This document shows, one piece after another, positions 1,902 to 57,081 of a DNA stretch of 64,000 nucleotides. Source of the DNA: Candidatus Binatia bacterium (lineage in GTDB: Bacteria > Desulfobacterota > Binatia > UBA12015); NCBI GenBank assembly GCA_029248525.1, contig JAQWJE010000043.1, forward strand, positions 1 through 64,000. The letters run 5' to 3'. Every line of letters begins with the position of its first letter. Position 1 is the stretch's first letter. A program made the position numbers and the translations under genes. A model generated the notes under the pieces. It was not told the DNA's origin. It searched no databases and worked only from the letters and a program-made list of their open reading frames with translations.

Positions 1902-2780
1902 TCAGAGAAGCGCTGCCGCCAGGGTCTCCCACTCAGCCGTCGGTACGTGCGACATATCGGGTCCGACCACCTGCAGGCAGACATGATCAGCACCCGCTTC
2001 CTGATGCTGAATCACGCGCTCTCGAATGACTTCGATATCGCCCCAGGCAACAATTGCATCCACGAGTCGATCGCTGCCGCCGTTTTCAAAATCGGCCGCC
2101 TCGAAACCGAGGTTCTCCAGATTGCGGCGGTAGTTGGGCAGGCCGATATAGATCTGCATATGGGTCCGGGCCCATGCGCGCGCCTTTTCGGGATCCGTCT
2201 CGAGACAGACCGCCTGTTCGGGCGCGAGGAATTTATCGGGGCCAAGAGCCTCGCGGGCCTTCGCCGTATGGGAAGGCGGCACGAAATAGGGATGCGAACC
2301 GGCCGATTTCTCGGCGGCCAGCGCGAGCATCTTGGGGTGCAGGGCAGCCAGAACTCGCTGCGGCGGCTCGGCCGGGGTCGCCGCAAAAAACGGCGCCTGA
2401 TCCATCTTGTCGAGATATTCGCGCATATACGTCAGCGGCTTGTTGTAGGCATGTCCACGAACGGAATCGACCATGGGAGCATGGCTTACGCCCATGCCGA
2501 GCAGGAAGCGTCCATCGTAGGCTTCACAGAGCGTCTTTTGCGCCGACGCCATCGCCATCGCATCGCGCGCCCAGACGTTCGCGATCCCGGTCGCCACGAC
2601 CAGCTTGTCGGTCCCCGCGAGAAGAAGGGCCGAGCTGGTAAAGATCTCGCGCCCCACCGCCTCGGGAATCCACAAGGCACCAAAACCGAGATCCTCGATC
2701 TGTTTGGCACAGCGCTGGGACTCCTGCGCCGGCATCATGTCGAGAAAGGCCCAAATTCCAATTTTTCCAAGATCGATCAT
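1902..2780 (-). CDS. LLM-class F420-dependent oxidoreductase
   Basis: 292 aa, a luciferase-like TIM barrel starting MIDLGKIGIWAFLD. Motifs typical of the F420-dependent LLM subfamily (TIGR03620-like) include CAKQIEDLGFGALWIPEAVG near residues 25-45, GIANVWARD, and GRFLLGMGVSHAP near 90-102. These enzymes take hydride from F420H2 or give it to F420 on unknown alcohols, ketones or enones. The reading frame stays open 45 codons further upstream, but that part is a low-complexity VATR/VAIP repeat, so I start at 2780, where a -10-like GATCGT lies six bases before the ATG. It lies 77 bases downstream of the small kinase partner gene and may be the last gene of that operon. Confidence 0.8.
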   Translation of the reverse strand: MIDLGKIGIWAFLDMMPAQESQRCAKQIEDLGFGALWIPEAVGREIFTSSALLLAGTDKLVVATGIANVWARDAMAMASAQKTLCEAYDGRFLLGMGVSHAPMVDSVRGHAYNKPLTYMREYLDKMDQAPFFAATPAEPPQRVLAALHPKMLALAAEKSAGSHPYFVPPSHTAKAREALGPDKFLAPEQAVCLETDPEKARAWARTHMQIYIGLPNYRRNLENLGFEAADFENGGSDRLVDAIVAWGDIEVIRERVIQHQEAGADHVCLQVVGPDMSHVPTAEWETLAAALL

Positions 2781-2857: not shown

Positions 2858-3301
2858 TCAGAGAGGCTGGGAGGCGAGCGACCTTCTTTGGGTGGAAGCC
2901 TTCAGCTCCTCCCACATGCGCTGCTCGAGTGCGGCAGCCGGCGGCGAATCGATCTCTTCGAGCGCTGCCTGCAAATCCGCAAACACGGCGCGCATCCCGT
3001 CGTTCTCTGCCTGCAGGATCGAGACACGCAGGGAGTTTTGCGAGACCATCGACGCCTCGAGACGCCCGACCAGATCGGCATCCTCGACCAGATCGTCGGC
3101 ATCGCGGAAGATCTCGCGCATCGCGGCATTTTCCTCGTGCAGGCGTTCGGCCATCTTGTCGGCATCCTCGGCAAACATCATGAGAAGCACGCCGGCGAGC
3201 ATCGAAGATTTCGTCTCGTAGGACCCACGCGGTGCCACGACCTGCCCCATCAAGAAGCTGGCAGCGAGAGTCTGCGCAATTTTCATCGGTTGTACGCTCA
3301 T
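2858..3301 (-). CDS. small partner protein of APH-fold kinase (DUF6285/LvaB-like)
   Basis: 147 aa, start ATG at 3301, with its first bases inside the stop of the kinase gene (ATGA, 4-base overlap), so the two are translationally coupled. The N-terminal half has SFLMGQVVAPRGSYETK followed by an amphipathic helix. The middle is acidic and helical (EDADKMAERLHEENAAMR) and the C-terminus has a second long helix. Small DUF6285-type proteins occur next to aminoglycoside-phosphotransferase-like genes. In the levulinate system of Pseudomonas putida the small LvaB is needed for activity of the kinase LvaA. From memory of that gene arrangement and size I infer this is the LvaB-like subunit. No catalytic motif is visible. 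Confidence 0.65.
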   Translation of the reverse strand: MSVQPMKIAQTLAASFLMGQVVAPRGSYETKSSMLAGVLLMMFAEDADKMAERLHEENAAMREIFRDADDLVEDADLVGRLEASMVSQNSLRVSILQAENDGMRAVFADLQAALEEIDSPPAAALEQRMWEELKASTQRRSLASQPL

Positions 3302-4329
3302 CGTCGCCTCTCCATCACCGCCAGAGTCCCCACATCCTGCGATAGAGCGATCGACCACGCCGACAGCGCCATCACGACATCCTTGTTGGAACCCTCGACG
3401 TACTCGCGGGCGGCCGTCACCCAGATTGCTTGTCCCTTCACACAGGAAAACAGCTGCCACCAATACAAGGCATCCCGATCCGCCTCGCGACCGGCAGCCT
3501 TCTCCCAGATCGAAATTGCCTGCTCGGGGAGAACCAACCCTCCTGCTCGATCATCTTTCGCAAAATGCCATAAGGGAGAGAGGCTCCAACCGAGATCCTC
3601 GAGAGGGTCTCCCAAATGAGACATCTCCCAATCCAGAATGGCCTGCACGCCTTCCGTATCGAAAAGGAAGTTTCCGCTGCGGTAGTCGCCGTGCACGACA
3701 CCAATGCGGTCCGGCGGCGGGGGCGGATTGCGACGCAGCCAACGAATCGCTGCCCGGGTTACGGGCTGCGGCGTACGCTCCTCCTTGTCGAGAATGGTCT
3801 CCCATTTATCCAACTCACGACGCCAGCATTGATCACGCTCGGGCACCTCGAAGGCTTCGTTGAGCCCGACATCGGCGGGGTCCAGACGCGCCAAATTGCC
3901 GAGAATCGTCCATTTGGACTCGGCCAGCTTGTCGGCCAATGGGGCGTAGGTGGGGGACACCAGATCGGTCAGGTCCGAGCTGTACCCGCGCAGCTCCTCC
4001 ATCACGAAAAACGGCGCACCCAACCAGCCGTCGCCTTCCTCCAGCCACAGAGCCTCCGGCACCGGAATCGCCGTGCCGAGCATCGCCCGGTAGGCCGCAA
4101 ATTCCACGCTGCGCTCGGTTTCGATCAAACTCCCCTCGGGGTCGCGCCGCAGGATCAACCGGCGTTCCCGGGTCTGCCCATCTTCATCGTACTGCAGCCG
4201 CAGTCGGTAGGTTTCGCGCGAAGCTCCCCCATGAATCCGATCGACCTCGTCGACCAGAACATTGCTCACGTCGGGAAGCTTTGCCGCAACAAATCTTGCC
4301 AGCCCCGTTTCAATCGAATTATCAGCCAC
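3298..4329 (-). CDS. APH-fold phosphotransferase, LvaA/ACAD11-kinase-like
   Basis: 343 aa. The kinase fold is evident: VHGDYRSGNFLFD near residues 205-217 is the Brenner catalytic loop (H-G-D-x-x-x-x-N), and ILDWEMSHLGDPLEDLGW near 223-240 carries the metal-binding Asp. An N-lobe strand with RRLILRRDPEGSLIETE supplies the ATP-binding Lys/Arg region. Although the family is called aminoglycoside phosphotransferase, members beside acyl-CoA genes phosphorylate the 4-hydroxyl of 4-hydroxyacyl-CoAs (LvaA, the ACAD10/11 kinase domain). Here it lies between an acyl-CoA synthetase (56 bases upstream) and its coupled small partner, so that role is more likely than drug resistance. Confidence 0.8.
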   Translation of the reverse strand: MADNSIETGLARFVAAKLPDVSNVLVDEVDRIHGGASRETYRLRLQYDEDGQTRERRLILRRDPEGSLIETERSVEFAAYRAMLGTAIPVPEALWLEEGDGWLGAPFFVMEELRGYSSDLTDLVSPTYAPLADKLAESKWTILGNLARLDPADVGLNEAFEVPERDQCWRRELDKWETILDKEERTPQPVTRAAIRWLRRNPPPPPDRIGVVHGDYRSGNFLFDTEGVQAILDWEMSHLGDPLEDLGWSLSPLWHFAKDDRAGGLVLPEQAISIWEKAAGREADRDALYWWQLFSCVKGQAIWVTAAREYVEGSNKDVVMALSAWSIALSQDVGTLAVMERRR

Positions 4330-4385
4330 TTCTCGGAGTACTCTCAGGCGAAAGCCGGACTTGCAAGACGCAAACGCAACAATCC

Positions 4386-5957
4386 CTACCCCGCAAACGG
4401 AGAGCGATCGCCCCAGAGCTCCTGGCGCACCTGATGGCGCAAGAGCTTGCCCGTGCCGTCGCGCGGCACCTCCGTGCGGACCAGAAAGCGACGGGGCCGT
4501 TTGTACCCGGCCAGACGTTGCTCGCAGGCAGCTTCGATTCGCGCCACTGCCGCGTCTTGCTCGGCAGCCGCCGCCGGAGCGAGCACCAGGCAGGCAACAA
4601 CGCTCTCGCCGCGGATCTCGTCGGGCTCACTGGTCACGCAAGCATCGGCGACCTCCGGGAGTCCATGCAGCAGGTCCTCGATCTCGGCCGGATAGATATT
4701 GACCCCACCCGACACGATCAGATCCGCTTTACGGCCCGAGATAAACAAATAGCCCTCGTCGTCGAGGAAACCGATATCTCCCACCGTAAAAGCACCCTCG
4801 TCGAGATAGGCGTCGTCGGTCTTCTCGGGTTCATTGCGGTAGCGGAAGGTGCGTCCGGCCGGATTGCGGAAATAAATCACCCCCGAGGATCCTGCGGGCA
4901 GTTTCTCGCCCTCCGGTGATCGGATCTCCACGGACATGCCTCGCGTGGCCCGCCCCACCGTCCCGGGCCGGCCGAGCCATTCGCGGGCATTGGCGACTGT
5001 CATGCCCCCTTCGGTCATGCCGTAATACTCGGTCAAAATCGGGCCCCACCACGCAAGCATCTCGTGTTTCAGAGGCTGCGGACAGGGCTCGCCACCGTGC
5101 AGGACGCAATTGAGCGCGGGTGCCGAAAATCGCGCGCGCACTTCCTCGGGCAGACTCAGAATTTGGCGGAACATCGTGGGCACCATGCAGGTCGAATGGA
5201 TTCCGTCGGCAAGTGCCTCGAGCGCGAGTTCGGCATCCCAGCGACCCAAAATATGCATCGGCGCCCCGGCTGCCAGAAGCGATAGGCTGAAGGCCAGAGG
5301 TGCCCCATGAAAAAGCGCCGAGACATTCAAATGGGGCCCGAAGCTCGGCACCTCAAGGATGCGTGCAAATTGGGAACTCGCCGCAAAGGCATCGGCAAAC
5401 GGCCGCGCGACATCCATCGCCCGCATCACACCCTTGGGGCGCCCCGTCGTGCCCGAGGTATAGGACATGCGGACGCCGCATCGATCGTGCGGCAAGGGTG
5501 CTTCGTCCTGCTCGGACAGCCAGTCCTCAAAACTCTGATTGAAACCCTGCTCGACACCCTGCCCGGGACTCTTCCCGACGCCCTGATCCAGATCCAGAAC
5601 CGGGACGGCTTGTGCGTCGGCGGTCTCGCGAGCCACGGCACCGTCAGTCATCACCAGGCGCGTATCGGCGTCCTGAAGCACATAGGCCAACTCTTCGGCG
5701 CGCCAACCGGTCTTGACCGGTGTCACCACCATCCCGGCACGCATGCCGGCAAGAAGGCTTTCGATAAATTCCCGCCGATTGCTTGCCGAGAGAACGATAT
5801 GGTCCCCGGGCACCAGCCCGAGACCCTCAATTCCGCGGGCGAGCTGGTTGGTCCGCGCCTCGAGTTCGAGCCAGGACATCGAGCCGCGAGCATCCACAAG
5901 CGCCGGAGCCGACGGGTTTGTTCCCGCCAATATCCAAAGAGGCGGCGCCTCCTGCAT
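4386..5957 (-). CDS. AMP-binding acyl-CoA synthetase
   Basis: 523 aa, full length for the ANL superfamily. Visible core motifs are MSYTSGTTGRPKGV (P-loop, ~168-181), ILTEYYGMTEGGM (~307-319), FTVGDIGFLDDEGYLFISGR (~392-411, hinge) and VPRDGTGKLLRH near the C-terminus with the adenylating Lys. It would activate a free carboxylic acid to its CoA thioester through an acyl-adenylate. Five bases separate its start from the stop of the upstream acyl-CoA dehydrogenase, so the two are co-transcribed. In the operon it is the entry step. Chain length or substrate class is not evident from the sequence. Confidence 0.88.
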   Translation of the reverse strand: MQEAPPLWILAGTNPSAPALVDARGSMSWLELEARTNQLARGIEGLGLVPGDHIVLSASNRREFIESLLAGMRAGMVVTPVKTGWRAEELAYVLQDADTRLVMTDGAVARETADAQAVPVLDLDQGVGKSPGQGVEQGFNQSFEDWLSEQDEAPLPHDRCGVRMSYTSGTTGRPKGVMRAMDVARPFADAFAASSQFARILEVPSFGPHLNVSALFHGAPLAFSLSLLAAGAPMHILGRWDAELALEALADGIHSTCMVPTMFRQILSLPEEVRARFSAPALNCVLHGGEPCPQPLKHEMLAWWGPILTEYYGMTEGGMTVANAREWLGRPGTVGRATRGMSVEIRSPEGEKLPAGSSGVIYFRNPAGRTFRYRNEPEKTDDAYLDEGAFTVGDIGFLDDEGYLFISGRKADLIVSGGVNIYPAEIEDLLHGLPEVADACVTSEPDEIRGESVVACLVLAPAAAAEQDAAVARIEAACEQRLAGYKRPRRFLVRTEVPRDGTGKLLRHQVRQELWGDRSPFAG

Positions 5958-5962
5958 GCGCC

Positions 5963-7075
5963 CTAATCCACCACCAACCGGCCCAATGCCTGCAGCTGGC
6001 GACTTTCACCGCCCATGGTCAAACCGAGATGCCGCATGGCGAGAAAAAAGCGATGCAGCGGATAGTCCCGGTCCACACCGACACCGCCATGGAGGTGCTG
6101 GGCAGCATGAAGCACCCGATCCCCACCGGTGGTGGCCCAATAGGCGGCGATCGCTACTTCGGTCTCCGAGGGCAATCCCTCGGAGATTCGCCAGGCAGCC
6201 TGGCGGGCCACAAGTCGCAGAGCTTCGGTATCGATGTAGGAATCTGCAGCCCGGTGGGCGACGGCCTGAAACATCGCAATCGGCTGATCGAATTGCTTGC
6301 GGGTCTTGATATAATCCGACGTCAGGGCCAAGGCCGACTCGCAAGCACCGACCGCGTAGGAACAAAGTGCGGCATTTGCCTGCAAGACCATTTCCGCGAC
6401 AATCGGCGCGCCCTGATCGAGGCCGCCGACGATCGCCTCGGACGCGACCCGAACCCCGTTGAGCCTGATATCGGCCTCGGGCTGACCAGTCGTGGTATCC
6501 AGTGCGGTCAGATGCACGCCGTCAGCTGTGGGATCCACAAGAAAGATCGTGATCCCGTTCGCGGTTTTCGCCGGCACCAGAATCTGGCTGGCGAGTTCCG
6601 CAGCGCGCACCGCAATCTTGTGGCCGTCGAGAACCCATCCATTTCCGTCCGCCGCCGCTGTCGTGCCAGGATCCACCGGTTCCCGCAAATCCTCGAGAAG
6701 AGCGGCGGTGACGATCTGCTCGCCCGAGGCAATCGCGGGCAAAAGTGTTTTTTTCTGTTCTTCGGTTCCGTGAGCGGCCAGAGGCATGCCCCCCAGGACC
6801 ACGGTCTCGAGCAATGGCACCGGTGCGACCGTCTTGCCGACCTTTTCGAGAATCGCCGAAAATTCCAGAAAACCCATGCCGGCCCCACCATAGGCTTCCG
6901 GCAAGGCCACACCGATCAACCCGCTGGTGCCCAAAGTCTTCCACAAATCGGCATCGAAGCGTGGGCCTTCGGCGCGCTCGATGGCGCGGATACTTTCATG
7001 CGTTGCCTTCTCGGTCAGAATCTGGTCGGCCAGATCGACCAGCGCGGTTTGTTCTTCATTCAACGAAAAATCCAT
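5963..7075 (-). CDS. acyl-CoA dehydrogenase family protein (short form)
   Basis: 370 aa beginning MDFSLNEEQTALVDLADQIL, the usual N-terminal helix. The middle beta domain (~120-230) and the C-terminal helical domain containing YIKTRKQFDQPIAMFQAVAHR (FAD/dimer interface) are recognisable. HLHGGVGVDRDYPLHRFFL near the end is the FAD-contacting segment. FAD oxidises an acyl-CoA to the enoyl-CoA. It lies 44 bases after the 392-aa paralogue. Paired unequal acyl-CoA dehydrogenases often form heteromeric enzymes (FadE pairs of steroid catabolism in actinobacteria), so a heterotetramer is possible. In an lva-like pathway one of the pair could instead act on a 4-phosphoacyl-CoA. Confidence 0.85.
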   Translation of the reverse strand: MDFSLNEEQTALVDLADQILTEKATHESIRAIERAEGPRFDADLWKTLGTSGLIGVALPEAYGGAGMGFLEFSAILEKVGKTVAPVPLLETVVLGGMPLAAHGTEEQKKTLLPAIASGEQIVTAALLEDLREPVDPGTTAAADGNGWVLDGHKIAVRAAELASQILVPAKTANGITIFLVDPTADGVHLTALDTTTGQPEADIRLNGVRVASEAIVGGLDQGAPIVAEMVLQANAALCSYAVGACESALALTSDYIKTRKQFDQPIAMFQAVAHRAADSYIDTEALRLVARQAAWRISEGLPSETEVAIAAYWATTGGDRVLHAAQHLHGGVGVDRDYPLHRFFLAMRHLGLTMGGESRQLQALGRLVVD

Positions 7076-7119
7076 ATCGACTCCTGCTCTCTGCCTGCCT
7101 TGACTTGTATCTTCGGGAT

Positions 7120-8298
7120 TTAGTGACGAGGAATCCGGGGCAAACCCATCCCGAACAATCCGATGAGATCTCGTTGGACCTCATTGGTGCCGCCACCAAA
7201 TGTCAGGATCAGCAAGGAGCGGTAGAGATTCTCGAGACGCCCGCCAATCACGGCCGCTTCGGAGTCGGCGCTCAGGTAACCGCGAGGACCGAGCACCTCC
7301 ATCAGCATGCGAACCGAATCCAGATAGAACTCGGTCCCGTAGACCTTGATGCTCGAGGCATCCGCCACATCCAGAGGGCCTTGCTCGGAGGCCCAGGCAA
7401 CCTTCCAGTTAAGCAACTTCAGGTATTCCAGACCGGCCCGGATCTTGGCGAAGTTGGCCTGGACCCATTCCTGGTCCGCCACGCGCTTGCCGTCCGGCAT
7501 CCGGGTTTCGCGGGCCCAATCCATACAAGCCTCATAGGCACCGGAAAGCATACCGACGGAACAAAGAGTCACGCGTTCGTGGTTGAGCTGGTTGGTGATC
7601 AACGCCCAGCCGTCGCCCGGATTCCCCACCACGCCCGAGGCGGGCACTCGCACGTCATCGAGGAATGTCGTGTTGATGTCATGCGAGGACAATAACGTCA
7701 TGGGGTCGACCTTGATCCCCGGCGTCTTCATGTCGACGACGAAAATCGACAGGCCCTTATGCTTGGCGACCTCCTGGTCCGAGCGCGCAGCAAGCCAGAT
7801 GAAATCGGCGTCGCCGGCCAAGCTGGTATAAACCTTCTGCCCGTTGATCACGAACTCATCGCCTTCGCGGTCGGCTCTGGTGGTGAGGGACGCAAGGTCG
7901 GTACCGGCGGCAGGCTCGGTGTAGCCGATACAAAAATGAATCTCGCCTTTAAGAATCTTGGGCAGGAAGAAGGACTTCTGCTCTTCGCTGCCGAACTTCA
8001 TGATCGAGGGACCGACGGTGTTGATGGTCAGCATCGGCACAGGCGCTCCCGAGCGCATCGATTCATCAAACCAGATGAATTGCTCGATCGGGCTGAGACC
8101 ACGGCCGCCGTATTCCTGCGGCCAGCCCACGCCCAACCATCCGTCCGCGCCCATCTGCTTCACAACCGAGCGCATCACCTCACCGGTGCCCTGCCCCTCG
8201 TGAAGACCGCGGACGACTTCCGGGGTCAGCAAATTCTCATAGTACGAGCGAAGCTCACTGCGGAGCGCTTCCTGTTCCTCGGTATATCCAATGTACAT
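7120..8298 (-). CDS. acyl-CoA dehydrogenase family protein (long form)
   Basis: 392 aa, complete. MYIGYTEEQEALRSELRSYY opens the N-terminal helical domain, FCIGYTEPAAGTDLASLTTR (~137-156) is the substrate/FAD-binding loop in the FadE17/34-like form, and FGGGTNEVQRDLIGLFGMGL near the C-terminus is the conserved G-G-x-x-E end motif. This is the first gene of the minus-strand operon running to 2858 or 1902. No Shine-Dalgarno sequence is visible. Instead TTCAAT lies six bases upstream of the ATG, with TTGACT 17 bases further, and a CATTGAATCAATG palindrome covers the -10. The protein is probably the partner of the 370-aa dehydrogenase that follows it. Confidence 0.88.
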   Translation of the reverse strand: MYIGYTEEQEALRSELRSYYENLLTPEVVRGLHEGQGTGEVMRSVVKQMGADGWLGVGWPQEYGGRGLSPIEQFIWFDESMRSGAPVPMLTINTVGPSIMKFGSEEQKSFFLPKILKGEIHFCIGYTEPAAGTDLASLTTRADREGDEFVINGQKVYTSLAGDADFIWLAARSDQEVAKHKGLSIFVVDMKTPGIKVDPMTLLSSHDINTTFLDDVRVPASGVVGNPGDGWALITNQLNHERVTLCSVGMLSGAYEACMDWARETRMPDGKRVADQEWVQANFAKIRAGLEYLKLLNWKVAWASEQGPLDVADASSIKVYGTEFYLDSVRMLMEVLGPRGYLSADSEAAVIGGRLENLYRSLLILTFGGGTNEVQRDLIGLFGMGLPRIPRH

Positions 8299-8303
8299 AT
8301 GCT

Positions 8304-8333
8304 CATTGAATCAATGGGGTCGGAAGGAGTCAA
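8304..8333 (-). promoter_or_regulatory. promoter and palindromic operator of the acyl-CoA catabolic operon
   Basis: Minus strand: TTGACT (8328-8333), 17-base spacer, TTCAAT (8305-8310), then six bases to the ATG. The 13-base odd palindrome CATTGAATCAATG (8304-8316) covers the -10, a plausible repressor site. Hexamer matches are 5/6 and 4/6. The transcript would be leaderless or nearly so. Confidence 0.45.
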
Positions 8334-8697
8334 TGGTGAAGTCGCTTGACCTTCCTCTGCCAAACTCGATGAAGGCGAGGGAAACTCATGGAGATTCAGC
8401 GACATAGAGAAGGCAAGTGGCGACTTTAGACCGTGGATCCGACGCCAGAGAGCCGCGAGACAAAGGTGGTCGAGGCTGACTCGGATTCAGCCGCACGCGT
8501 GCGGCCCGGTGGGGAGCGACCGCCCGACCCTCGCTGAGGCTTGGCGCAAAACTCCGGGGCGGCTGCCGCTCCGGGAAGCTCCGGGAAGCTGCAGCAAGAC
8601 CAGCGAGAGAACAAGCGCGATTCGCGATGTCCGACTATCCCGCGCCAGCACTGGGGATATCCTTCCTTCTCTTCGCGAGGCCATTGGGCGGCCTTGC
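8334..8697. other. 364-base stretch without a gene
   Basis: This lies between the 3' end of the cob operon and the promoter of the acyl-CoA operon. I see no credible ORF. It contains a perfect 16-base palindrome GCCGCACGCGTGCGGC (8490-8505) with no T run after it on either strand, and a tandem 10-base duplication CTCCGGGAAG near 8570-8590. Function unknown. The palindrome may help end cob transcription. Confidence 0.5.
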
Positions 8698-9273
8698 CTA
8701 ACTGGAGATACTTGGTCTTCGAAACCGGTCCTGAATCGAATGCTGGATCGAATGCTGGATCCAGCCCAGAAAAGGATTGTCAGATGCCATCGCTTCCTCC
8801 CAAGTGGCCCCACCCAAGGCTCGAAAGACGCGAATGACGCCTGCGTGGGTCACGATCGCGTCTGTGGGTGACGGCGCCTGGTCCTCCAACCACCCCCCGA
8901 CTCGGCTGGCAAAGGCATGCAAAGATTCTCCACCCGGGGGCGTTATCGTCTGCCAGTCCGCACACCATGCGCGCCAACGCGGGCCATCCTCGGCGTCGAT
9001 CGCATCGTACGTCCGGCCCTCCCATTCTCCGAAGTCCATCTCGCGCAGCCGAGCATCCGTGCGCACCGGCACCGACCAGGCCGCCGCCAAGTCACGGGCC
9101 AATGTCGCGCATCTCGGAAGGTCCGAACTGAACAACTTTCCCGGCCGAAAAGGCGCCGCCTCCATGGCCAATGCAACGGCGTCCGCACCGGATATGGTGG
9201 TCTCGATGACCGTTTGCCCCACACACCTGCCTTGGCGGTCCACAGGAGGGTGACGTAGCGTCCAGATCGTCAC
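8698..9273 (-). CDS. cobC: alpha-ribazole phosphatase (histidine phosphatase family)
   Basis: 191 aa. The GTG start at 9273 overlaps the TGA of cobS by four bases (GTGA), which fixes the start. TLRHPPVDRQGRCVGQT at the N-terminus is the R-H catalytic motif in the CobC-specific form, LREMDFGEWEGRTYDAI gives the second conserved block, and DAIVTHAGVIRVFRAL carries the second catalytic His. The enzyme removes the 5' phosphate of alpha-ribazole phosphate or adenosylcobalamin phosphate, the last step in lower-ligand assembly. The C-terminus contains a short tandem duplication (IQHSIQHSIQD) caused by a repeated TCGAATGCTGGA, just before the stop. It is the last gene of the cob operon. Confidence 0.85.
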   Translation of the reverse strand: MTIWTLRHPPVDRQGRCVGQTVIETTISGADAVALAMEAAPFRPGKLFSSDLPRCATLARDLAAAWSVPVRTDARLREMDFGEWEGRTYDAIDAEDGPRWRAWCADWQTITPPGGESLHAFASRVGGWLEDQAPSPTDAIVTHAGVIRVFRALGGATWEEAMASDNPFLGWIQHSIQHSIQDRFRRPSISS

Positions 9274-10025
9274 GTCGAAACCAGCGCCATCAAAATGACC
9301 AACTCCGAAACCTGCTGCAGTGCTCCCATGAAGTCTCCGGTCAACCCGCCGGCACGTCGCTGGAAATAAACCCCCAGCACCACACCGACCACCACCATCC
9401 CGAAAAGAGCCTCCAGGATCCCCCGGGCCGGGACGCCCCAAGCCCAAGCCGCCCCAGCGATCAATACGACCCAAGCCATGGCGATCAGCGCCTGCACCCG
9501 GCCAGACCGCGCCACATCTCGCGATTTGGATTGGGGGTCGTCTCTTCGGGCATAGGGCTGCAGTCCCAACTGCATGACCGGCAAGGCTCGCGACAAGGAT
9601 TGGCCCAGAACCAGACCGACCGGGGCCAGAGCGCCCAGGTCAACCAGCAGGCTTACCTTGAGCAATAGAGCGACGATCAAGGCAAGCGCACCAAAGGCAC
9701 CGATGCGGCTGTCTTTGAGAATCCGCATCACATTATCCCGGTCGTAGCCTCCCCCAAGTGCATCGACCGAGTCGGACAGACCATCTTCGTGAAATCCGCC
9801 GGTCACCAGAATGCCCAGGGTGACGACAACGATCGCCCGGGTGGGATCCGAGTAGCCGTCCAGTCCTACCCACACCAGAACTTGCAGCAAGCCGATCAGG
9901 GCACCCACCAGAGGAAACCAGATGGATATCCATTCCCAGGTTTTGGGCGGATAGGGGAACCCGCCCACCGGTATCCTCGTGAGGAACGTGAACGAGGCAC
10001 GAAATGCGCGCAACCACTCCGGCAT
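9270..10025 (-). CDS. cobS: adenosylcobinamide-GDP ribazoletransferase
   Basis: 251 aa integral membrane protein, start MPEWLRAFRASFTFLTRIPV at 10025, sharing one base with the cobT stop (TGATG). TGGFHEDGLSDSVDALGGG (~75-95) is the CobS signature, with the acidic residues used for Mg and GDP-cobinamide. About six hydrophobic helices follow, and GGLTGDFMGALQQVSEL near the end is the conserved C-terminal motif. It joins adenosylcobinamide-GDP with alpha-ribazole (phosphate) in the inner membrane to make adenosylcobalamin (phosphate). It is flanked by cobT and cobC, both overlapping, so this is a tight lower-ligand operon. Confidence 0.92.
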   Translation of the reverse strand: MPEWLRAFRASFTFLTRIPVGGFPYPPKTWEWISIWFPLVGALIGLLQVLVWVGLDGYSDPTRAIVVVTLGILVTGGFHEDGLSDSVDALGGGYDRDNVMRILKDSRIGAFGALALIVALLLKVSLLVDLGALAPVGLVLGQSLSRALPVMQLGLQPYARRDDPQSKSRDVARSGRVQALIAMAWVVLIAGAAWAWGVPARGILEALFGMVVVGVVLGVYFQRRAGGLTGDFMGALQQVSELVILMALVST

Positions 10026-12544: not shown

Positions 12545-12877
12545 ATGAAGCACGAGACGCACGACGGACATAATCACGCACACGGCACGAATTGCGGTCA
12601 TGTGGCGATCCGCCACGACGGACACGTCGACTACCTGCACGATGGCCATATGCATCACGACCACGAAGGACACGTCGACGAGTGTCGTGTCGAGATCGGT
12701 GACACGAACCCGGATGGATGCCGACCGGCCGCCGCAGAGGCCGAGCACGTCCATGGAGCCAGTTGCGGACACCCTGCCGTGCCGCATGGGGATCATACCG
12801 ACTATCTGGTCGATGGCGTGCTGCACCACCCGCATTCCGATCACTGCGACGACCACGGTCGCGTGGACGTCGTTTGA
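12545..12877 (+). CDS. His/Cys-rich metal-binding protein with internal duplication
   Basis: 110 aa, 24 of them His. Two halves repeat the same pattern: HG-x-x-CGH-x-A, then H-x-x-H-x-DYL-x-DG-x-x-HH (residues ~13-39 and ~67-94). Such density suggests a cytoplasmic zinc (or nickel/cobalt) buffer or delivery protein; there is no signal peptide and no transmembrane segment. AAGGAG lies 6 bases before the ATG. Its TGA overlaps the TTG start of an ArsR regulator with a zinc-site signature, so metal-controlled expression is likely. Which metal binds cannot be settled by reading. Confidence 0.8.
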   Translation: MKHETHDGHNHAHGTNCGHVAIRHDGHVDYLHDGHMHHDHEGHVDECRVEIGDTNPDGCRPAAAEAEHVHGASCGHPAVPHGDHTDYLVDGVLHHPHSDHCDDHGRVDVV

Positions 12878-13227
12878 CCAAAAGCCATCGTTCGCCGCCG
12901 GATGATTCGTGCAGCCACGAGCCGCACGAGCATCAGCCCAGCGCGCCGGCAGTCATCGAGCGGGCGGCGGCACTGTTCCGCTGCGCAGGCGACGAAAGTC
13001 GCCTGCGCCTACTCGAACTGCTCATGACTGGCGAGCATTGCGTCACCGAGCTCGCAGAAGAGCTGGACGAAAAAATGTCGACAATGTCCGAGCGGCTGCG
13101 CTTGCTCCGAGCCGATGGGCTCGTCAGCCGACGCCGAGAGGGCAAGCATATGTATTACCAACTCGCCGACGACCACGTACGAGCCATTCTCCGCATGGGC
13201 CTGGATCACGCATCCGAGGATCTCTAG
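12874..13227 (+). CDS. ArsR/SmtB-family zinc-type metalloregulator
   Basis: 117 aa from a TTG start that overlaps the previous stop (TTGA). An upstream extension of 52 codons in the same frame is only the shadow of the His-rich gene. The winged helix is clear: CVTELAEELDEKMSTMSERL (recognition helix region ~51-70) then LRADGLVSRRREGKHMYYQL (wing). The last helix carries D99-x-H101-(10)-H112-(2)-E115, the alpha-5 zinc-sensor pattern of the SmtB/CzrA/ZiaR group. The N-terminal tail has SCSHEPHEHQ, a second possible metal site. By family rules apo-protein represses and metal binding releases. It probably autoregulates the promoter at 12478. Confidence 0.88.
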   Translation: MTKSHRSPPDDSCSHEPHEHQPSAPAVIERAAALFRCAGDESRLRLLELLMTGEHCVTELAEELDEKMSTMSERLRLLRADGLVSRRREGKHMYYQLADDHVRAILRMGLDHASEDL

Positions 13228-53616: not shown

Positions 53617-54735
53617 TCAGGTAGCGCCGTCAACAAGCCCGCGGAATCCGGACGGAGCATGCGGGCCGATGGCAATCTGTTCGAGAACACCGATCCCTTT
53701 CTCGTTGCCCATACTCGCGCGCATCACCTGCTGAATATGCAAGTTATCCAGAGCCAATGGATCCATATCCTCACAGCGCCACGATTCGCCGGCAAATTCC
53801 AGTTCACCTTTCCAACGCCCGTGTCCCCACTCCGGGTGCTGGTAGCCAATCCCCTTCATCCGGAAAAGAAGCAACGGTTCCAGAGTAATCTCGTTGCGCG
53901 TCCCATCCCTCTGGACCAGCACAATCTCGGCACGTTTTGCCTGACGGGTACCGGGCACGTACTCCAGCCGCCGTTCGACCGAAACGACTCTCTCGATACC
54001 TTCGTCCGCATTCGCGGGAATTTCCTCAGGGGACCCGTACACCGGCACCAGAGCACCGTCGGTATGCCAGGGCGTCCCGTCGGCTTCTTCGAAGATCCCC
54101 AGATGCGTGCAGCGATTCTCCCAGTGCAGCGGTGCCCAGAGGAAGAAGACTTCCGGCATCACGAGTGCCGGTGCAGGACCGGGATCCGGCGCACCAACCG
54201 GCCGCACGCCCCAGGAACGGTCCTTGGTCCCGGGACAACTCTTGATCGACAGGGTCTTGCCCGCGTAGCGCACTTCGCCCTGCCAGTGTCCGAATTGCGC
54301 AAACCGGGTGGCATCCATCATCACGCGCCCGCCAGCATGGCGGGTCTGTCGCCCCTCCTCCACCGCGGCGGTTCGCGCCGTGAAAAGAAGATCTGCCGAG
54401 ATCCCGGTTCGATTGTCGTCGAGGATCAACCGGACCTGACGCATCGGCTCGACGATCTCGATTCGGAAAGGACCACAACTGGTATCGCTTGGGTCCAAAG
54501 GCGCCCGCCGCGAGCCATGAAACGCATGCTGCTCGCCATCGATGACCAGGCTGAAGCCGCAATCGAGAATCCCCAGGTTGGGATAGAGCCCCATACCGAT
54601 CCCGAAGTAGAATTCGCCTTCCTCCCCATAGCCGTTGAACCAGTAGCGGTCGTAAGCATTGCGATCGCCTGTCGCGCGGACGGCCACGGGTTCTGCTGTC
54701 TGGTGAATCGGGTAATCGTCGAATTTGCTGAGCAT
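53617..54735 (-). CDS. CrtC/AttH-like lipocalin-fold protein (DUF7064/7065 type)
   Basis: 372 aa, all-beta. DRYWFNGYGEEGEFYFGIGM (~29-48) and SCPGTKDRSWGVRPVGAPDP (~176-195) are typical of the double-lipocalin AttH/CrtC group, in which D-R-S-W-G-x-R sits in the ligand channel. CrtC hydrates carotenoid or hydroxyneurosporene double bonds; most bacterial relatives have no known role but bind hydrophobic ligands. GGAGGAAAG gives a strong ribosome site. It is the first gene of a unit with the sulfatase-like protein at 51480, and no signal peptide is visible. Confidence 0.7.
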   Translation of the reverse strand: MLSKFDDYPIHQTAEPVAVRATGDRNAYDRYWFNGYGEEGEFYFGIGMGLYPNLGILDCGFSLVIDGEQHAFHGSRRAPLDPSDTSCGPFRIEIVEPMRQVRLILDDNRTGISADLLFTARTAAVEEGRQTRHAGGRVMMDATRFAQFGHWQGEVRYAGKTLSIKSCPGTKDRSWGVRPVGAPDPGPAPALVMPEVFFLWAPLHWENRCTHLGIFEEADGTPWHTDGALVPVYGSPEEIPANADEGIERVVSVERRLEYVPGTRQAKRAEIVLVQRDGTRNEITLEPLLLFRMKGIGYQHPEWGHGRWKGELEFAGESWRCEDMDPLALDNLHIQQVMRASMGNEKGIGVLEQIAIGPHAPSGFRGLVDGAT

Positions 54736-56520: not shown

Positions 56521-57081
56521 TCAGCTGTCTTTCTTTTCCTCTTCCGCAGCAGCCTCAGGCGCGGCTTCCGCAGCAGCCTCAGGCGCGGCTTCCGCAGCAG
56601 CCTCAGGCGCGGCTTCCGCAGCAGCCTCGGGTGCGGCTTCCGCAGCAGCCTCGGGTGCGGCTTCCGCAGCAGCCTCGGGTGCGGCTTCCGCAGCAGCCTC
56701 GGGTGCGGCTTCCGCAGCAGCAGCCTGAAGAGCGGCCGCTGTTTCCGCAGCCTTGGCGGCCGCTGCTTCCGCGGCAGCTTGGGCGGCAGCTGCCGCCTCA
56801 GCTTCCCGCGCGGCTTCCGCCTCGCGGGCTTCTTTCTCTCGCTGCGCTGCGGCCGCTGCCTTCTCCGAAGACTTGGTCTTGTTCGCCGCAGCGTGTTCCT
56901 GCTCCTTGGCGGTTCTGGCTGCCTGAACGGCCGCGCCATTCATCGAACGGAGCTCTCGCTTCAGCGAGCGAATGCCCCGTCGAATCTTCTTCAGACCCGC
57001 GGCGTCCTTGGCTTCTTCTGCCGTGCCACGCTGGACTTTCAGCTCTCTGATTTGCGTTTTGATTTCGGCCTTTTCCGCCAT
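56521..57081 (-). CDS. Lys/Ala-rich coiled-coil protein with a C-terminal EAAPEAAA repeat tail
   Basis: 186 aa, GGGAGG ahead of the ATG. Residues 1-60 are basic and helical (IKTQIRELKVQRGTAEEAKD, LKKIRRGIRSLKRELRSMNG), likely a coiled coil that could bind nucleic acid or another protein. Residues ~60-120 are Ala/Glu-rich. The tail holds seven tandem copies of an 8-residue EAAPEAAA unit and ends EEEKKDS. The overall look recalls histone-H1-like or other basic nucleoid proteins with low-complexity arms, but no homologue is clear to me. It is bounded by a terminator on its 3' side. Confidence 0.7.
   Translation of the reverse strand: MAEKAEIKTQIRELKVQRGTAEEAKDAAGLKKIRRGIRSLKRELRSMNGAAVQAARTAKEQEHAAANKTKSSEKAAAAAQREKEAREAEAAREAEAAAAAQAAAEAAAAKAAETAAALQAAAAEAAPEAAAEAAPEAAAEAAPEAAAEAAPEAAAEAAPEAAAEAAPEAAAEAAPEAAAEEEKKDS
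56541..56720 (-). repeat. 24-bp coding minisatellite, seven units plus a partial one
   Basis: The unit CTTCCGCAGCAGCCTC[A/G]GG (plus-strand reading, 24 bases in full) occurs seven times in frame at 56541-56708, followed by a 12-base partial copy. The first three units carry CAGGCG and the last four CGGGTG, so each variant has been amplified as a block. Confidence 0.9.

Follow-up and report, generated by a model that had tools for sequence, protein, structure and literature searches.

A coupled kinase and small partner protein in a Binatia operon, with phosphosteroid-lyase homologs as recurrent neighbours and a possible role in ATP-dependent dehydration

To our knowledge, very few enzymes are known that dehydrate an alcohol at the expense of ATP, by phosphorylation followed by elimination. 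In Sterolibacterium, an APH-like kinase places a phosphate on the tertiary C25 hydroxyl of sterols, and its elimination by a lyase leaves an alkene (PMC8449060, PMC7411048, PMC11061730). This 25-hydroxysteroid kinase works as a monomer and needs no partner; the enriched kinase fraction also contained a luciferase-family protein and an acyl-CoA synthetase (PMC8449060). For the levulinate pathway of Pseudomonas putida, the small protein LvaB is reported to bind the kinase LvaA in pulldowns (Rand et al., 2017, as cited in PMC6692424) and to be needed for growth on levulinate (PMC6692424).

Here we compare with such systems an operon of an uncultured Candidatus Binatia bacterium, located in the window, that is, the whole stretch of 64,000 nucleotides analysed (contig JAQWJE010000043.1). 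With the Sterolibacterium denitrificans 25-hydroxysteroid kinase and 25-phosphosteroid lyase (25-PSL; PDB 9fzn, 9g2i, 9g4c) the window shares an APH-like kinase, a homologous lyase, acyl-CoA dehydrogenases (ACADs) of the steroid side-chain type, a luciferase-family protein and an acyl-CoA synthetase. However, the window kinase has a coupled small partner gene whereas the Sterolibacterium kinase is monomeric, and the window lyase is a paralog outside the operon, 32% identical to the solved 25-PSL over 358 aa. The window kinase is likened to the Sterolibacterium kinase SDENChol_21286 by class; the structure compared, 9fsg (25% identity), is only possibly that of the Sterolibacterium enzyme. As with LvaA-LvaB, a kinase is coupled to a small partner, here one that appears remotely homologous to DUF6285. 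Unlike that system, the partner is missed by the DUF6285 model, the likeness being drawn through DUF6285-adjacent stand-ins, and the operon is without an LvaC-type ACAD or an LvaD-type SDR. Animal ACAD10/ACAD11 have the same broad kinase class and the same catalytic motifs, but the window kinase falls on another branch, its ACADs are of another type and there is no fusion. Both subunits of Mycobacterium tuberculosis ChsE4-ChsE5 (FadE26-FadE27) and of Tcur3483/3481 are matched by adjacent window genes with the catalytic-position Glu kept, although in the window these genes are accompanied by those for the kinase, its partner and the F420-type LLM enzyme.

The operon and its dehydrogenases

The genes are transcribed in the order ACAD1, ACAD2, ligase, kinase, 147-aa protein and LLM oxidoreductase (Table 1). 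From ACAD1 to the kinase the intergenic gaps are 44, 5 and 56 bp, the kinase and 147-aa genes share a 4-bp ATGA overlap, and 77 bp then separate the latter from the LLM gene; given the short gaps and the overlap, a single transcription unit is plausible. Scans for promoters, terminators, Rfam families and tRNAs gave nothing above chance. A preliminary description of this DNA had named five of the genes, and all five are open reading frames on the minus strand where it placed them; it was equally right about the intact H-G-D-x4-N loop of the APH-fold kinase (H213, D215, N220) and about the coupling of the 147-aa frame to the kinase, the ATGA lying at the kinase stop. The sixth gene, for the LLM-class oxidoreductase, was absent from that description. 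A thioesterase gene is convergent on the end of the operon. The ligase has no specific function assigned to it, since its top NCBIfam model (PRK12406) scores 370 bits, under the cut-off of 701.

Table 1. Genes of the operon and the distant lyase homolog in the window
Feature	Position	Strand	Evidence
ACAD1, acyl-CoA dehydrogenase, ChsE4/FadE26-like putative catalytic-type subunit of an alpha2beta2 heterotetramer	7120..8298	-	PDB match to 4x28 chain A
ACAD2, putative partner acyl-CoA dehydrogenase subunit, ChsE5/FadE27-like	5963..7075	-	Tcur3481 and 4x28 chain D matches
Acyl-CoA synthetase / AMP-binding CoA ligase, FadD-like	4386..5957	-	PF00501 203 bits, PF13193 54 bits
APH-fold small-molecule kinase, GTG start, HGDYRSGN loop and LDWE motif	3298..4329	-	PF01636 114 bits
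147-aa all-helical putative kinase partner, probable divergent DUF6285 relative	2858..3301	-	profile comparison
LLM-class F420-dependent oxidoreductase, last operon gene	1902..2780	-	TIGR03620 345.1 bits vs cut-off 219.8
25-phosphosteroid-lyase homolog, 49 kb from the operon	53617..54735	-	9fzn_A (25-PSL) E=3.6e-46

In PDB searches, ACAD1 matched chain A of the cholesterol side-chain enzyme 4x28 (E=1e-126, 427 bits) and Tcur3483 (385 bits), while ACAD2 matched Tcur3481 (6wy8_A; E=3e-76, 260 bits) and chain D of 4x28 (E=6e-67, 229 bits). ACAD11 was absent from the 56 matches of ACAD1 at 1e-20 and from the reported matches of ACAD2. Residue E241 of ACAD1, in the motif LNHERV, aligns with E247 of 4x28_A, which we take to be the catalytic base. 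The pattern is that of ChsE4-ChsE5, with both chain types encoded by adjacent genes and the catalytic-position Glu found in ACAD1 only. By these comparisons, the two proteins best match the steroid side-chain heterotetramer type and not the LvaC/ACAD11 type.

The PDB matches of both ACADs reveal no LvaC/ACAD11-type dehydrogenase in or near the operon. Such enzymes are encoded elsewhere in the genome, on contig C8 (404 bits to ACAD11, next to a CoA ligase) and, more weakly, on contig C22, so the step is missing from the operon only and not from the cell. The earlier expectation of ACAD11-like dehydrogenases and of a complete levulinate-type pathway in the operon is therefore not supported: both ACADs appear to be of the steroid type, and the LvaC-type ACADs, together with a second LvaA-like kinase paired with a true DUF6285 protein (contig C13), lie on other contigs.

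The kinase and its small partner

Conservation and translational coupling mark the kinase and the 147-aa protein as a pair. In the class, 12 of the 145 genomes have homologs of the small protein, as do a few genomes of another class, and in every locus examined these directly adjoin homologs of the window kinase (46-58% identity). The two genes overlap by 4 bp at nine of the 11 loci measured and by 1 and 11 bp at the remaining two; this constant adjacency and the kept overlap argue for a pairing beyond chance. The rest of the neighbourhood varies from genome to genome. Homologs of ACAD1, ACAD2 and the ligase (70%, 57% and 64% identity, respectively) accompany the pair in only one further genus, which belongs to the same family; a scan of public contigs returned matches from the same species alone.

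Across 11 kinase homologs, residues H213, D215, N220, D233, W234 and E235 are invariant. In a maximum-likelihood tree, where DUF6285-adjacent kinases were the stand-ins for P. putida LvaA, these kinases, the window-type kinases and one partnered Rhodococcus kinase fall on one side of a branch (98/93), and ACAD11, 3dxp, 9o56 and partnerless kinases from the same genome fall on the other. By sequence and by this position, the window kinase is classed with the partnered, LvaA-like kinases instead of with ACAD11. The kinase and partner had been compared both to LvaA/LvaB and to ACAD11; the first comparison is a good one, as the kinase groups with those that have small partners, while the second fails, as ACAD11 belongs to a branch that does not include the window kinase.

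Searched by sequence, the 147-aa protein scored above cut-off with neither Pfam nor NCBIfam families and matched no PDB chain; its hit to SIKE (19.8 bits, cut-off 24.3) was attributed to coiled-coil similarity and disregarded. The Pfam model of DUF6285 did not match the protein at E 0.1 and, among its relatives, reached one at E=0.62. On the other hand, a profile of 11 relatives matched DUF6285 genes in two genomes (G018, 6e-6; G045, 1e-3), and a full-length profile-profile comparison with DUF6285 by hhalign aligned the N-terminal ~70 residues with a probability of 84-86% and a score of 39.3, against 11.9 +/- 2.2 (maximum 23.6) for 200 column shuffles and 24.2 for the reversed profile. The likeness to DUF6285, which the preliminary description had suggested checking, is thus lost at the level of the Pfam model and retained as remote homology by profile comparison, and we take the protein to be a divergent, remote relative of that family. 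LvaB of P. putida is presumably a DUF6285 protein itself. Three genomes encode DUF6285 and its kinase as one fused protein, in support of the small protein acting as a subunit. AlphaFold models built from two-sequence alignments gave a helical small protein (pLDDT 78.5, pTM 0.33) and a kinase with a pLDDT of 37.7.

Phosphosteroid-lyase homologs beside the pair

Among the varied neighbours of the pair, the one that recurs most is a homolog of 25-PSL. A protein of ~370 aa adjoins the pair in four of ten relatives, and a profile of eight such pair-adjacent proteins matches 25-PSL in the PDB at 9e-74. On three Rhodococcus plasmids the lyase homolog comes directly after the kinase and partner, and the partner protein of Rhodococcus USK10 is of the window type (E=7e-19). 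The orientation of the lyase to the pair differs by locus (convergent, divergent, same-strand upstream, same-strand downstream), with at least three arrangements among the four relatives, and proximity has thus been kept through rearrangement. Among the 145 genomes of the class, lyase homologs are found in 11 of the 12 with the small gene as against 46 of the 133 others (Fisher p=1.5e-4, relatedness uncorrected). The lyase homolog of the window itself has no significant Pfam match.

The same genome encodes a second lyase, on contig C16, that is 53% identical to the solved 25-PSL, and its contig C35 carries a ChsE-like pair, dehydratase-like genes and an Ltp2-type lipid-transfer thiolase (PRK07855, 670 bits, cut-off 469). 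In two genomes of the same family the gene for a lyase homolog is next to one for an ACAD11-like ACAD, the two overlapping in G004. In G056 about 1.2 kb or less separates an ACAD11-like gene from ACAD1/2 orthologs. Through these adjacencies the lyase, ACAD11-like and ACAD1/2 genes form one web of associations. The Rhodococcus operons contain a P450, an aldehyde dehydrogenase, a ligase, a thiolase and an MFS or ABC transporter. This gene content resembles that of small-acid catabolism, and a terpenoid acid may therefore be the substrate instead of a sterol.

A candidate dehydration pathway and its rivals

The conserved lyase neighbour elsewhere points to the dehydration of an alcohol on a sterol- or terpenoid-like side chain. 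We see roughly an even chance that the operon removes a hydroxyl by phosphorylation and subsequent expulsion of the phosphate, in the catabolism of such a side chain. The kinase with its small subunit would phosphorylate the alcohol (probably tertiary or secondary), free or as a CoA ester, and the 25-PSL-family enzyme would eliminate the phosphate to yield an alkene, a net removal of water at the cost of ATP. The ligase would form the CoA ester of the side chain, the ACAD1/ACAD2 heterotetramer would start its beta-oxidation and the LLM enzyme would perform an F420-linked redox step. The chemistry and class of substrate, the need for the small subunit and the cooperation of the distant lyase with the kinase are inferred. 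Several observations favour the dehydration reading: ACAD1 and ACAD2 match both chains of 4x28 and of Tcur3483/3481; the lyase adjoins the pair in relatives and in Rhodococcus and co-occurs with it across genomes; the genome also holds the closer lyase and the ChsE/Ltp2-type cluster; and the succession of kinase and elimination is established for 25-hydroxysteroids in Sterolibacterium. The dehydration reading is weakened by the 49 kb between lyase gene and operon, by the activity of the Sterolibacterium kinase without a partner and by the low identity of the window kinase to 9fsg, itself only possibly the Sterolibacterium kinase. It is weakened further because CoA esters are the substrates of LvaA-like kinases, which are among the partnered ones, and because ACAD1/2 and the ligase accompany the pair in just one other genus. 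The term sterol is perhaps too narrow, given the Rhodococcus operons with their MFS or ABC transporter.

More tentatively, it is possible that widespread and so far unrecognised two-subunit alcohol kinases act together with enzymes of the phosphosteroid-lyase family to dehydrate, at the cost of ATP, hydroxylated intermediates in general, whether sterols, terpenoids or acids. The kinase partner would be a fast-diverging, helical protein with DUF6285 as one visible subfamily, and the levulinate and anaerobic-sterol phosphorylation chemistries would be united. Should the pair work with the phosphosteroid-lyase homologs, the chemistry would be far more widespread than the Sterolibacterium case, many of its kinases would depend on a subunit not recognised by present family models, and one kinase lineage would be common to levulinate-type and sterol-type phosphorylation. 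The unnamed 147-aa protein and the lyase homolog that Pfam misses would gain a directly testable role, and the uncultured source bacterium seems able to degrade sterol-like side chains.

A live rival, which we hold to be rather unlikely, is kept so by the LvaA/DUF6285-like and LvaC-like genes elsewhere in the genome. The pair would be a paralogous LvaA/LvaB that phosphorylates 4-hydroxyacyl-CoA, an ACAD11/LvaC-type enzyme encoded elsewhere would remove the phosphate, and ACAD1/2 and the ligase would serve in the following or preceding beta-oxidation. The remote DUF6285 kinship of the partner, the common branch of the partnered kinases, the ACAD11-type genes of C8 and C22 and the gene neighbourhoods of G056 and G004 are consistent with this, as is the order ACAD-ACAD-ligase-kinase-DUF6285 on plasmids of Sulfitobacter and Variovorax. 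That order also means that the arrangement is not unique to the window lineage. The Sulfitobacter ACAD that follows kinase and DUF6285 was considered as LvaC-like and rejected, ACAD11 being only its 41st PDB match. Against a 4-hydroxyacyl-CoA pathway, no LvaC-type ACAD is in or near the operon by the PDB matches, the genome already has an LvaA-like kinase with a true DUF6285 on C13, and the recurrent neighbour of the pair is a phosphosteroid-lyase homolog and not LvaC.

It is improbable that the kinase acts on a substrate unrelated to hydroxylated acids or side chains (an antibiotic, sugar or nucleoside), with its place in the operon incidental. The fold is common to antibiotic and thiamine kinases, and the neighbours of the pair vary widely, including recA/alaS and efflux genes. 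However, the NCBIfam antibiotic and thiamine kinase models all score 17-26 bits against cut-offs of 205-550, and in the PDB ranking ACAD11-class kinases reach 40-71 bits and antibiotic kinases 24 or less. On these scores an antibiotic or sugar kinase was rejected; they place the window kinase far from antibiotic kinases, with which, or with sugar kinases, a grouping would have been contrary to the proposal of the preliminary description.

That the small protein is an independent product merely translated after the kinase, and not its subunit, is highly improbable: its structure model is of low confidence and it diverges strongly between strains, but none of the loci examined has it away from the kinase, the overlap is kept, LvaB is reported to be pulled down with LvaA (PMC6692424), and DUF6285-kinase fusions exist. 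On the adjacency, the overlap and the fusions, a small open reading frame arising by coincidence was likewise rejected.

Probable partners of LvaA-like kinases beyond DUF6285

On plasmids of Novosphingobium, Sphingopyxis and Rhodococcus, a kinase of this kind is likewise present, and the proteins encoded after it are small and helical but different ones, which either escape recognition by Pfam or have no annotation beyond hypothetical. The family of kinase partners is probably much larger than DUF6285. In three genomes (L004, L005 and L015), a single uninterrupted reading frame of 496, 502 and 570 codons, respectively, spans the kinase and DUF6285, and these frames are natural fusions of the two.

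Coordinates of the features discussed
Feature	Location	Positions	Remark
Plasmid kinase/small-partner locus	L071	7851-9574	
Plasmid kinase/small-partner locus	L147	5880-7486	
Plasmid kinase/small-partner locus	L070 (Rhodococcus)	8996-9352	
Plasmid kinase/small-partner locus	L146 (Rhodococcus)	7993-8373	
Small gene	window (-)	2858-3301	147 aa
Small gene	L045	22-465	same species
Third heteromeric acyl-CoA dehydrogenase pair and surroundings	L128 (contig C22)	1620-9793	
Putative side-chain cluster	L129 (contig C35)	7325-14760	
Histidine-rich protein	window	12545-12877	110 aa
ArsR-family regulator	window	12886-13227	directly after histidine-rich gene
24-bp repeats, near-perfect	window	56541-56721	seven and a half copies, 98% matches

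Divergence of the small gene within the species

Between the two same-species genomes, the small gene differs at 8.8% of bases, with 18 synonymous and 17 nonsynonymous codon differences; the kinase differs by 1.8% and the ligase and the ChsE5-like dehydrogenase subunit by 0.4-0.5%. Such a pattern is perhaps that of a localized divergent allele, for which recombination is a possible origin, or else an artefact close to a contig end.

Dehydrogenase pairs on other contigs and further features of the window

The genome that contains the window encodes a third heteromeric dehydrogenase pair on C22. Less than 5 kb from it lie genes for a cytochrome P450 and for an ACAD11-like dehydrogenase bearing the DGPDEVH motif. 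On C35, a ChsE-like dehydrogenase pair is accompanied by dehydratase-like genes, a CoA transferase and an Ltp2-type lipid-transfer thiolase, and by its gene content the cluster looks like one for terminal sterol side-chain cleavage.

Within the window, the histidine-rich protein, which is very rich in this residue and has no match in Pfam, and the ArsR-family regulator are encoded downstream of the cobalamin genes cobT and cobS, and they may constitute a metal sensor or chaperone pair. The 24-bp repeats encode an Ala/Glu/Pro-rich segment within a 186-aa protein.
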